Part shown: positions 23,598-39,480 of the stretch, piece after piece
Numbering within the stretch: position 1 is the stretch's first letter
Layout of the letters: every line of letters begins with the position of its first letter
Assembly (NCBI GenBank): GCA_944323625.1
Contig: CALUTD010000006.1
Coordinates: forward strand, 1 to 64,000
Origin: Candidatus Gastranaerophilales bacterium
GTDB lineage: Bacteria > Cyanobacteriota > Vampirovibrionia > Gastranaerophilales > Gastranaerophilaceae
Direction of reading: 5' to 3'
DNA: 64,000 nt
Notes under the pieces: generated by a model
What the model was told of the DNA's origin: nothing
Database searches by the model: none
Seen by the model: the letters and a program-made list of their open reading frames with translations, nothing else
Position numbers and translations under genes: made by a program

Positions 23598-23807
23598 TTA
23601 CTCCGATATATCAATTTTTATACTGTAACCGAGAATTTTACATATCATTTTCATTTCTGAATACTTCAAGGATTCTTTTGACAGCTTATGGGATAATAAA
23701 CTCTGTGAATAATTTTTTCCGCTTATTTCGCTCATCCGCTTTGCTAATTCCGTCATAGTCATACACTTTGACACAAGCATTATTTTTACTTCTTCCCTGA
23801 TATTCAT
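23598..23807 (-). CDS. Small XRE-like HTH regulator
   Basis: The protein from ATG 23807 has about 69 residues and is almost entirely one helix-turn-helix domain. MTMTELAKRMSEISG carries the first two helices, SQSLLSHKLSKESLK the recognition helix, and MKMICKILGYSIKI the end. It resembles the short phage-like XRE regulators of Firmicutes. Longer in-frame starts (ATG 23822, TTG 23846) exist. TATAAT lies six bases before the ATG, suggesting a leaderless message. It faces away from the prepilin gene at 23932 across a cluster of palindromes, so it may regulate that gene and itself. Confidence 0.75.
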   Translation of the reverse strand: MNIREEVKIMLVSKCMTMTELAKRMSEISGKNYSQSLLSHKLSKESLKYSEMKMICKILGYSIKIDISE

Positions 23808-23861
23808 AAAAACATTATACATTTCATTTCTTTTGCAGCTTGACAATTTATGATAATTTTT

Positions 23862-23903
23862 ATATATTCATGAATATATTTCATAATAATGAATATTATT
23901 CAT
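23862..23903. promoter_or_regulatory. Operator-like palindromes between HTH gene and prepilin gene
   Basis: A perfect 18-base palindrome, ATATATTCATGAATATAT (23862-23879), is followed by ATGAATA-T-TATTCAT (23889-23903). Between them TTCAT-AATA-ATGAA (23880-23893) uses the same half-site. The repeated ATGAA/TTCAT half-sites in a divergent promoter region look like binding sites for a dimeric regulator, probably the adjacent HTH protein. In an AT-rich genome some palindromes arise by chance, but three sharing a half-site is more than expected. Confidence 0.55.
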
Positions 23904-23931
23904 AATATATTTACAAAGGAATAAAGAAGTT

Positions 23932-24624
23932 ATGAAAAAAATAAACTCATTTACTTTATCGGAAGTCCTGATTACACTTGTAGTTATAGGAATAGTTGCC
24001 GCAATAACAGTTCCTGCTATTGTTGCAAATTATACAGAAAAAGCAAGAATTTCAAGAATTAAAAAAATTTATTCAACACTTGCAAATGCAATGACTTATG
24101 TTAAAGCAAACGGAGGAGATTATGATTTTGAAGCTGCTGCAAACAATAAAGATGAAGCGGAAAGATGGTTTAATTCATATATAAAACCTTATCTTTCTCT
24201 GTCAAAAATTTGCTATAACGATAGTAAAGGCTGCTGGAGTAATGATAATACAAGAGCTTTAAACGGCAAAGTTCTTTTTAATACGGGAATTTATGGTGAT
24301 GGACTTGTCGGTTCCGGAGTAATTACAGCCGTTTTAAATGACGGAAGCTTTATTAACTTTAATATTTGGGGTAAAAATACTGCAAAGACAATTGCAAAAA
24401 TTAATTATACCGATTTCACAATAGCTATTCACTTTGATATTGACGGAGAAAACGGACCTAATACTATGGGCAAAGATGTATTTTTAGTATTTTTTATTCC
24501 TAATAGAGGACTTGTTCCTGCATACATAGATGCTTCAATCGCCGAAAAAGAAAAAAATTGTTCTCAAACAGAAACAAGCAACACTGCAGGTTTTTCATGC
24601 CTGTTAAAATATTTAAATATGTAA
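23932..24624 (+). CDS. Prepilin-like protein without homopolymer tract
   Basis: The 230-residue protein starts with a six-residue leader (MKKINS) and the prepilin segment FTLSEVLITLVVIGIVAAIT, with Glu at +5 after presumed cleavage. The globular part has FDIDGENGPNTMGKDVF and two Cys near the C-terminus, but it lacks the GW-DYP tail. It is the only prepilin-like gene here with no G or C run, so it should be expressed steadily or be controlled by the HTH regulator facing it. A poly-G relative follows 82 bases downstream. It probably encodes a type IV pilin-like or minor pilin subunit. Confidence 0.85.
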   Translation: MKKINSFTLSEVLITLVVIGIVAAITVPAIVANYTEKARISRIKKIYSTLANAMTYVKANGGDYDFEAAANNKDEAERWFNSYIKPYLSLSKICYNDSKGCWSNDNTRALNGKVLFNTGIYGDGLVGSGVITAVLNDGSFINFNIWGKNTAKTIAKINYTDFTIAIHFDIDGENGPNTMGKDVFLVFFIPNRGLVPAYIDASIAEKEKNCSQTETSNTAGFSCLLKYLNM

Positions 24625-24706: not shown

Positions 24707-25451
24707 ATGAATAAAAAATCAAATTGCTACGGGGGGGGGTAAAAATAGCTTAAAATTTAAAAGTTCTTTCTCTCTAAACAAGTCTTCATATACGCTTGCA
24801 GAAGTTTTAATTACCCTTGTTGTTATAGGGATAGTTGCCGCAATAACAATTCCTTTAATTATAAGTAATTACACAAAAAAGTCGACAGCCGTTAAACTTC
24901 AAAAAACATATTCCGCAATAGAAAATGCTTTCAAACTTGCCGCTTTGGATTATGGAAATTCTTTAGATTGGGATTGGTCCAATAAAGAATATGCGCTAAA
25001 AACTTATTTAGGAAACTATTTTAATGTTATTAAATATTATGGTCCCGAAACGTATCGCACTCCAATGTGCCATGAAGAGCAGGTCACTTTTTATAATACT
25101 AATTTCACATACGGATGGCTTACAAATGTATATATAAGTTCTCCGTTTCATCCGCAAAATAATTATTCATTCTTAACAAATGACGGAGTTTGTATAGGTT
25201 TAGGACAATCTCAAACAGATGGTAAACATTATATTTATATAGACATAAACAGTTCTATAAAAGGTCCTAATAAGGCAGGTAAAGACTTATTTATTTTTGT
25301 TTTTGTCAATGGAACAATAAAACCATGGGGATATGATAAAGAAGACGTAAGCAGTCCATCAATAGCAAAAGCTTGCAATAAAAAAGCGCCCTCAGGCGGT
25401 GGTTACTGTGCAGAAAAAATTATACGTAATGGCTGGGAAATACAATACTAA
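24707..25451 (+). CDS. Prepilin-like protein with poly-G tract, frame OFF (copy 2)
   Basis: The ATG at 24707 follows AAGGAG. After eight codons comes a run of nine G (24731-24739) and then an immediate stop. In the other frame, open without a stop from 24741, lie SSYTLAEVLITLVVIGIVAA and a full pilin-like domain with INSSIKGPNKAGKDLF, two Cys and GWEIQY. Eight or eleven G would join the ATG to it with a 27-residue leader. A gene caller would only report the part from about 24945. The presumed cleavage is before Tyr, with Ser at -1. It lies directly downstream of the tract-free prepilin gene. Confidence 0.8.
24731..24739 (+). repeat. Poly-G tract of nine (prepilin copy 2)
   Basis: Nine G right after codon eight of the Shine-Dalgarno-linked frame. 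Loss of one or gain of two restores the prepilin frame. Confidence 0.9.
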
Positions 25452-31613: not shown

Positions 31614-32368
31614 TTATAACTTATAAGGATAATCATCGTTAAATTCCCAGCCTGCATTTTCCAATATACGTGTACAGCTTTTTATTTCACCCCCGTCTTC
31701 ATAATCCCAAATATTTCTTACATACGTATTAAAAGTGGGAATAGTTTGGTCGTATGCAGATGAGTTATAACCGTTGCAATTGTTTTGCGTAGAACAAATT
31801 CCTTCCGTATAAAGATAAAATACAAAGATATCTCTGCATAGCTTATTTGGTCCTTTTTCTCCGTTAACATCATAATGTACTGTGTCTGAATAAGGAGATA
31901 TCCAAAATATTGAACCGTCATTTAAATAAACGGCAAATTTGTTGTCGCCATAACCGTAGGAATCAACTTCATTATAATAATTTATATTATCTGCTAAATT
32001 TTCGGTTTTTAAATAACTAATTTTATTTAAGAATCCTATACTTTCGAGCAATTCTTTTTCTTCTTCATAAGTACAATCTGTTGCCTCGCAATTAGTATTC
32101 ATTTCAAAGAATCTCATTCCGTTTTCAATTTCTGTAAGTCTGAACGCTTCTGACATGGTTGAATAAAATTTTTTCAATTTTGCCGCTGTTTCCGTTTTTT
32201 TGTGGTTTGCCATTATTACAGGTACCGTTATTGCGGCAATAATTCCTATAACAACGAGGGTGATTAATACTTCCGCAAGCGTAAAAGACTGAAACTTTAG
32301 AGAAAAACAGTTATTAAAATTTAATCTGTTTTTACCCCCCCCCTGTGGCGATTTAATGATTTATACAT
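31614..32368 (-). CDS. Prepilin-like protein with poly-G tract, frame OFF (copy 3)
   Basis: The ATG at 32368 has AAGGAG upstream. After eight codons it meets nine G and soon a stop. The prepilin frame (QS-FTLAEVLITLVVIGIIAA, then ITVPVIMANHKKTE and a globular part) is one base off. Ten or seven G would restore it, with a 28-residue leader. The C-terminus has VNGEKGPNKLCRDIF, a Cys and GWEFNDDYPYKL. The first 181 bases or so after the ribosome site are shared with copy 4 with one mismatch, while the rest has diverged. It faces the hom-thrC operon. Confidence 0.8.
32170..32350 (-). repeat. 181-bp block shared with prepilin copy 4
   Basis: It matches 39282-39462 with one difference (GCGGCA against GCAGCA in the + strand text). 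It covers the poly-G tract, leader and membrane helix up to AAKLKKF. Outside it the two genes diverge. Confidence 0.9.
32335..32343 (-). repeat. Poly-G tract of nine, coding strand (prepilin copy 3)
   Basis: Nine G on the coding strand. Gain of one or loss of two restores frame, the opposite direction from copies 1 and 2. Confidence 0.9.
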
Positions 32369-38740: not shown

Positions 38741-39480
38741 TTATAATCTTAAAGGATAATCATCTTTAAATTCCCATCCGTCTATTTCTAAAAGCTTTGT
38801 ACATGAACCTCTTGATGTTTTTAAACTTTGACCACAATTTTGTTTTGCTTGTTCTCGTGATATATTTCTAAAAGAAATATTATCGCTGGTAATAACATGT
38901 GGTAGTGTTAAAAGTTCATTTTCTGTATAATATCCTTTTGTACTTGGGGCAAGAATCATAAATCCAAACATATCTCTCCCATATTCATTTGGGCCTTTAT
39001 CACCATTGATATCAAAATAAATACTATCATTTGACTCTAAAGTAAACATTGTGCCATCGTTTAAATAAATTCCCGTAACGCCACATACAGTATGCGATCC
39101 ATCTACATGAATACCATCAGGATCTTCATCACCGCATAGATAAATAATTTTTGTATAATTAAAATATTTAGCTAAATATCTGTTAAAAAAACTATCTAGA
39201 TGAATATTTTCCCACTCATACGATGGTAACCCTTCTTCAAGTTCTGCAAGTTTGACAGCATTAGACAGATTAGAGTAGAACTTTTTCAATTTTGCCGCTG
39301 TTTCCGTTTTTTTGTGGTTTGCCATTATTACAGGTACCGTTATTGCAGCAATAATTCCTATAACAACGAGGGTGATTAATACTTCCGCAAGCGTAAAAGA
39401 CTGAAACTTTAGAGAAAAACAGTTATTAAAATTTAATCTGTTTTTACCCCCCCCCTGTGGCGGTTTTCTGTTTTAATCAT
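38741..39480 (-). CDS. Prepilin-like protein with poly-G tract, frame OFF (copy 4)
   Basis: The ATG at 39480 follows AAGGAG, and after eight codons reaches nine G and a stop soon after. One more G (or two fewer) would connect it to the leader, QS-FTLAEVLITLVVIG and the pilin domain, with a 28-residue leader. The C-terminus carries FDINGDKGPNEYGRDMF, two Cys 13 residues apart and GWEFKDDYPLRL. The first 181 bases match copy 3 with one mismatch, while the globular parts differ widely. This suggests recent duplication or gene conversion of the 5' part. Confidence 0.8.
39282..39462 (-). repeat. 181-bp block shared with prepilin copy 3
   Basis: Matches 32170-32350 with a single mismatch, covering tract, leader, membrane helix and the following basic segment. 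Confidence 0.9.
39447..39455 (-). repeat. Poly-G tract of nine, coding strand (prepilin copy 4)
   Basis: Nine G on the coding strand. Gain of one or loss of two restores the prepilin frame. Confidence 0.9.

Follow-up and report, generated by a model that had tools for sequence, protein, structure and literature searches.

We found that a small helix-turn-helix (HTH) protein, encoded head to head with a type IV prepilin gene, very probably controls that gene through ATGAA/TTCAT sites lying between the two. From the arrangement of these sites, we consider it likely that the protein represses the divergent prepilin as a dedicated regulator with this single target, and that it also regulates itself. 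In sequence comparisons the regulator, its operators, and both promoters behaved as a constant unit, shown by their conservation, and the prepilin body downstream as an exchangeable cargo, shown by its replacement between close relatives. It was unexpected that the regulator and operators were conserved while the prepilin was replaced.

Organization of the HTH-prepilin locus

The locus lies in a stretch of 64 kb that was analysed as a whole (the window). The HTH gene was taken from the ORF list (23598..23807, minus strand); it starts at ATG 23807 and encodes a 69-aa Cro/CI-type protein, the proposed regulator. In-frame starts upstream of this ATG were without conservation in orthologues. The proposed controlled gene, or cargo (23932..24624, plus strand), matched the Pfam family N_methyl (PF07963) at 24.5 bits against a cut-off of 21.2, indicating that the type IV prepilin N-methylation motif was present. 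The two start codons were 124 bp apart. Other neighbours of the HTH gene in the window were prepilins, tRNA-Leu, and, beside the tRNA gene, a ribonuclease Y-like ORF that we take to be rny.

The predicted prepilin promoter consisted of a -35 box TTGACA (23840..23845, plus strand) and a -10 box TATATT (23863..23868, plus strand) with a 17-bp spacer, and a Shine-Dalgarno sequence AAAGGA was seen at 23915..23920 on the same strand. On the minus strand, a -10 box TATAAT for the HTH gene (23814..23819) was located 6 nt from its ATG. Three putative operators were placed around the prepilin promoter. O3, a half-site reading ATGAT in the window (23850..23854, plus strand), lay within the -35/-10 spacer. 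O1, ATGAATATATTTCAT (23870..23884), was an inverted pair of ATGAA (23870-23874) and TTCAT (23880-23884) that directly followed the prepilin -10 box and was therefore over the predicted start site. O2, the 15-bp palindrome ATGAATATTATTCAT (23889..23903), was 19 bp from O1. The three sites thus covered the promoter spacer, the start site, and the leader of the prepilin gene.

An 18-bp perfect palindrome, a 15-bp palindrome, and an ATGAA/TTCAT inverted pair had been reported between the two genes in an earlier note on this DNA, and all were found as described. When the 98-bp intergenic stretch was shuffled with dinucleotide content kept, a perfect palindrome of at least 18 bp appeared in 78/5000 shuffles, an 18-bp palindrome with a second one of at least 14 bp in 15/5000, and as many ATGAA/TTCAT words as observed in 7/5000. 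On the first two counts the composition test was non-decisive, and conservation across loci decides. Because the window had further palindromes, 15 to 27 bp long, at other places, palindrome length alone was also weak proof.

Conservation of the operators and promoters

The operator survey covered 37 loci, namely the window and L128-L163. Compared with ATGAA-N5-TTCAT, O1 matched all ten fixed bases in 31 loci, nine in 5, and six in 1, and each of these bases was conserved in 35-37 of the 37 loci. Within the N5 spacer, the first two bases were kept in 34-35 loci and the middle in only 19-27. O2 retained at least 8/10 bases in 31/37 loci and 7/10 or fewer in the other six; at a control offset, the same best-of-seven search reached at least 8/10 in 1/37. 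The left half-site of O3 was a perfect ATGAA in 31/37 loci, matched at 4/5 bases in 5 (window included) and at 3/5 in 1. The spacing was also maintained, at 20 bp between O3 and O1 in 33/37 loci and at 19 or 20 bp between O1 and O2 in 35/37. The 18-bp palindrome ATATATTCATGAATATAT (23862..23879) was ruled out as an operator, as its symmetry was not conserved in relatives and it was made up of the prepilin -10 box together with the left O1 half. What relatives kept as units were the inverted pair and the 15-mer.

The promoters followed a common layout, with a prepilin promoter like TTGACA-17-TATATT in orthologous loci. TTGAC was kept 19-32 nt from the HTH ATG in 35/37 loci; the exceptions were L160, which lacked it at the usual place, and L162. 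On the HTH side, TATAAT ended 6, 7, or 8 nt before the ATG in 28, 8, and 1 loci respectively, that is, in 37/37, and the HTH mRNA is therefore probably leaderless. Shine-Dalgarno-like words preceded the HTH gene in 4/37 loci and the prepilin in 26/26 examined. In relatives, O3 fell at the expected place of the HTH -35 box and O1 had its centre some 57 bp ahead of the HTH ATG; in the window, a 12-bp insertion displaced O3.

A divergent prepilin was found in 34/37 loci, the misses being L134, L142, and L162. At L134, both O1 and O2 were degraded. L142 had perfect O1 and O2 sites before a non-prepilin partner, a DUF2085 protein. At L162, where 522 nt were available on the prepilin side, all three operators were matched at 9/10 bases. 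The exact ATGAA-N5-TTCAT pattern occurred at 15 sites in the window genome, and only this locus had two of them side by side; a genome-wide regulon was rejected on this ground.

Fold and selection of the HTH protein

An AF2 model of the HTH protein, built with 34 family members, had a mean pLDDT of 91.5 and four helices (3-13, 18-29, 35-43, 49-59), in agreement with a lambda-repressor-like helical HTH fold of the Cro/CI (XRE) type. Its fold neighbours in the PDB included HipB, C.Esp1396I, SinR, and 434 repressor, with a TMq of about 0.64-0.70 and weak E-values; no PDB match was below E 0.001, the best was 0.032, and human POU domains ranked first by E-value. A sequence search of solved structures gave 13 weak matches, none of which was accepted as a whole-protein relative. 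The window protein scored 13.5 bits (E 0.092) against Pfam HTH_26, below the gathering cut-off of 22. Of the 34 family members, 13 matched HTH_26 (best 8.4e-5), 9 DUF6471 (best 1.4e-5), and 1 HTH_3 at E<=0.01, and one matched a single NCBIfam family, weakly. The phage transcriptional repressor family phrog_3 was matched by the window protein at 5.1e-5 and by 23/34 members. The median pN/pS of the HTH gene was 0.16, uncorrected, over 44 unsaturated pairs with pS between 0.05 and 0.6, showing purifying selection at the sequence level.

Proposed mechanism and alternatives

We propose that dimers of the HTH protein bind the array of ATGAA-N5-TTCAT sites, whose period of about 20 bp corresponds to two helical turns, so that binding would probably be cooperative. 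With O1 on the start site, O2 in the early leader, and O3 in the spacer of a near-consensus promoter, the occupied sites would be expected to keep RNA polymerase off the prepilin gene by steric repression. The protein would also set its own level, as expected from the position of O3 at the HTH -35 place in relatives. Binding, repression, cooperativity, the leaderless start, and autoregulation are what we infer from sequence. It had been suggested earlier that the HTH protein may switch the prepilin; control through the sites is very probable, whereas the layout speaks for a self-regulating repressor and gave no sign of reversible switching. At 69 aa, the protein has no room for a sensor domain. 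For uncultured gut Gastranaerophilales, which are related to cyanobacteria, a testable regulator and a predicted binding site are thereby provided for one pilin among more than 100.

The locus shared features with several known systems. HipB acts as the antitoxin to a partner toxin, and SinR has SinI. The fold of the HTH protein was common to HipB and SinR, but neither a toxin nor a SinI partner was present at the locus, the partner being an N_methyl prepilin. In lambda OR, the repressor operator lies between divergent promoters. The HTH locus resembled lambda-type CI/Cro switches (PY54, lambda OR) in having operators between divergent promoters and a repressor mRNA predicted to be leaderless; it differed from them in its single regulator, which had neither an opposing repressor gene nor a CI oligomerisation domain, and in the lack of recognised prophage genes adjacent to it. 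The Cro and CI mRNAs of PY54 are given as leaderless in the accessible part of PMC4488713. By analogy, the controller proteins of restriction-modification (R-M) systems appeared closest in working to the HTH unit. C.Csp231I and C.Esp1396I are likewise small XRE proteins, and C.Csp231I also has two dyads of the 5-N5-5 kind and regulates itself, as proposed for the HTH protein. Unlike in these systems, no restriction or methylase gene was seen, and the target was a divergent prepilin with its own strong promoter. Membership of the R-M controller family was rejected, as no R-M genes were linked.

These likenesses bear on an alternative in which the HTH protein would be a dual regulator of the R-M controller kind, activating its own promoter from O1 and repressing itself from O3, with a delay or pulse as the effect on the prepilin. 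C.Csp231I is described as using the repeat CTAAG-n5-CTTAG twice and as having a regulator transcript that seems to be leaderless (PMC4824078), C.Esp1396I was among the fold neighbours, and an O1 centre about 57 bp from the HTH ATG in relatives is a geometry that suits an activator-repressor equally. We nevertheless regard this alternative as unlikely, since a near-consensus prepilin promoter under three sites should need no activator and R-M genes were absent among the surrounding ORFs.

If the HTH protein mainly served its own operon (rbfA-truB in relatives) with the prepilin as a passenger, its commonest address between infB and rbfA would fit, but the other addresses and the placement of the operators on the prepilin promoter would not, and we give this reading very little weight. 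That the palindromes are RNA or terminator structures, or chance products of an AT-rich region, acting through no protein, is scarcely credible. The region is indeed AT-rich and shuffling produced an equally long palindrome at the frequency given above; against this, the fixed bases of O1 were conserved while its middle spacer varied, and O3 was upstream of the predicted start site, so that not all of the sites are transcribed.

Slip tracts and the prepilin repertoire

The window genome held 117 prepilin-like matches in 2.0 Mb, with 93 in G104 and 78 in G259, two genomes of another genus. Its prepilin repertoire is exceptionally large and largely phase-variable-looking. Five of the six window prepilins carried a run of nine Gs (four) or ten Cs (one) no further than about 55 nt ahead of their matched N-terminus. 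The prepilin at 23932, with no homopolymer slip tract in its leader or start, was the only exception, as had been noticed before. On contigs C1-C3, the 450 nt upstream of 23/29 prepilin matches included a G8 tract, which in one case was on the other strand. Such a tract accompanied 23/27 prepilins without a paired HTH gene on these contigs versus 0/4 HTH-paired prepilins in the whole genome (Fisher p 0.0022). The view that a slip tract and HTH control are alternatives was supported by this difference, but was weakened by the 4/27 other prepilins that were also tractless. At the other 36 orthologous loci, no G or C run of at least 7 was found in a stretch of at most 1400 nt past the HTH start, the sequence being shorter at some of them. 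Tracts were less common in the other genus, with a G7 tract within 300 nt upstream of 36/71 prepilins in G104 and 20/69 in G259. Two modes of pilin control, slip tracts and dedicated repressors, can thus be contrasted in one genome.

The nearest relatives of the window cargo were prepilins of its own genome and genus, at 43-52% identity. Both of its own-genome relatives had G10 tracts, and a tract was present in 1/7 of the genus-mate relatives with a readable start. Downstream (3') of the cargo, the prepilin at 24708-25451 had a nine-G tract after its ATG; it reads as phase-off in this assembly, because the frame from the upstream ATG stops directly after the G9 tract. Two minus-strand prepilins (32088-32297 and 38966-39409) shared their first 30 residues, and each was preceded by a nine-G tract. 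Among papers on this lineage, the accessible part of PMC5877343 reports a type IV pilus gene set, and that of PMC4040986 contains no word beginning 'pili'. In one open-access collection, no paper joined Gastranaerophilales and phase variation, and the titles listed included none on this locus.

Distribution and chromosomal addresses of the module

Orthologues of the HTH protein (E<=1e-20) were detected in 37 of the 383 genomes sampled from the order, the window's own included, with one match per genome. All were in one family, in 10/52 genera, and were 66-82% identical to the window protein over the same start. A scan of a further genome set returned 17 loci, 15 of them with HTH proteins 70-81% identical; these were labelled Candidatus Gastranaerophilales (4), Melainabacteria (3), bacterium or uncultured bacterium only (7), and Muribaculaceae (1, probably a mislabelled bin).

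None of the 36 other orthologues came from the window's genus, and 22 genus mates gave no match above 50% identity. On the earlier question of whether the palindromes are conserved in related genomes, the operators were kept in other genera, though no such locus turned up among the window's genus mates. We compared the rny locus, examining 30 of the 38 rny matches. In the 20 genus mates with about 1 kb beyond rny-tRNA-Leu, the first ORFs were other genes, never the HTH gene, and the HTH-prepilin module was therefore probably gained in the window genome beside the tRNA gene, with loss elsewhere as the alternative. The stretch beyond tRNA-Leu (L188-L217) varied between genus mates, making it a variable site beside a tRNA gene.

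The commonest address of the module was between infB and rbfA, with rbfA observed in 22, infB in 19, and both in 17 of the 37 loci. At this address (L116-L124; 17/37 orthologous loci), the prepilin was antisense to infB and rbfA. Other addresses included lepA, ferritin, and others, besides tRNA-Leu/rny in the window.

Replacement of the prepilin body

Among the 30 complete prepilins paired with an orthologous HTH gene (435 pairs), the median identity was 81% for the HTH protein and only 29% for the prepilin beyond residue 30. At the infB-rbfA address (16 loci, 120 pairs), the medians were 84% for HTH, 89% for rbfA, 89% for the infB end, and 30% for the prepilin. Compared with the remaining 29 complete cargos of orthologous HTH genes, the window cargo showed 21-37% identity. 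The bodies were replaced in four close pairs at the infB-rbfA address, L133/L151 (40%), L139/L153 (31%), L141/L147 (27%), and L153/L156 (28%). DNA homology in these pairs ran through the HTH gene, the operators, and about the first 18-45 codons, was then lost in the body, and reappeared at points from 66 nt ahead of the stop to 41 nt past it, with flank blocks 75-95% identical. A fifth close pair, L136/L143, had no break and a body identity of 76%. The HTH protein did not tightly track its neighbours, as L133/L151 were 100% identical in rbfA and 83% in HTH. In L145 and the related pair L150/L159, a second in-frame prepilin start was observed, e.g. MKKGFTLAE...AAFTLAEVLITL; the L145 gene looks broken, because its reading frame stops soon after the second start. 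These double starts are likely scars of gene exchange, as expected from misjoining.

As a control, we paired the prepilins of G104 and G259 (71 and 69) where both flanks were alike, which gave 26 syntenic addresses (loci L177, L182, L218-L327) in a small sample from one genome pair. Identity was bimodal, at 25-47% in 15/26 addresses and 70-99% in 11/26; some of the 15 belonged to tandem arrays (L290/L260, L308/L266) and may have been mispaired. As the two genomes were chosen for their replaced-looking HTH address (40%), that address was set aside, leaving 14/25. In the 15 replaced addresses, the 5' break was 65-93 nt after the first FTLAEV codon in 8, at 140 nt in one, and before the motif in six. 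Homology resumed 0-8 nt past the stop in seven, inside the gene's final 92 nt in five, and 52-304 nt past the stop in three.

With 15/26 syntenic addresses replaced, replacement is, on sequence comparison, genome-wide and belongs to the prepilin repertoire; this regulator is not its cause, and the idea that cargo replacement is peculiar to this HTH protein was accordingly rejected. Rapid point divergence was disfavoured, since 11/26 addresses kept 70-99% identity and the flanks were 75-99.9% identical. For the replaced G104/G259 cargos, matches elsewhere in the prepilin set of the other genome did not exceed 65%, and a donor for the G104 cargo was not found in 12 genomes (8 of its genus), the best match being 43%. 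In Neisseria, pilE/pilS underlie pilin variation, and pilins also undergo slip-tract phase variation. Like pilE/pilS, the present system combined a constant promoter and N-terminus with a pilin body that varied. Unlike there, bodies differed wholesale between species, a dedicated repressor took the place of the slip tract, and no resident copy accounted for the window cargo; gene conversion from a resident copy was unsupported for it, with the best own-genome paralogue at 52%.

These results suggested that this lineage of the animal gut has a large repertoire of exchangeable pilins. It is an evenly balanced proposition that about a hundred prepilin addresses each have fixed control, by a slip tract or a dedicated repressor, and a body replaced wholesale by foreign DNA, from close to where the conserved N-terminal helix ends to about the stop codon, with the HTH unit a regulated expression site of constant promoter and repressor whose pilin changes between close relatives. 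With regulator and operators constant and the prepilin body replaced, the divergent repressor becomes a marker of surface-filament diversification.

The wider HTH family

All 4 HTH family members of the window genome were head to head with a prepilin. In the wider family, 85 distinct members were examined, of which 8 faced a prepilin by motif; the other partners among those tested were TupA-like ATP-grasp, radical SAM, and DUF2085 proteins and small proteins without a clear family. A promoter scan was limited to the 72 distinct members with enough upstream DNA. A near-consensus promoter resembling TTGACA/TATAAT and directed away from the HTH gene was found in 49/72, versus 7 on the opposite strand and an expectation of 5 from shuffles that kept single-base composition only. 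No promoter was found by the scan rule in the other 23/72, including L010 of the window genome. Long dyads of other sequence were present at the equivalent place in several members (e.g. L031, L088). Given the promoters toward the partner side and the differing dyads, the wider family looks like a set of private repressors, each with its own operator. L142 and L080 belonged to different HTH subfamilies, and both faced a DUF2085 membrane protein. One genome of the order (G024) contained 21 matches to the HTH family, several of them close together.
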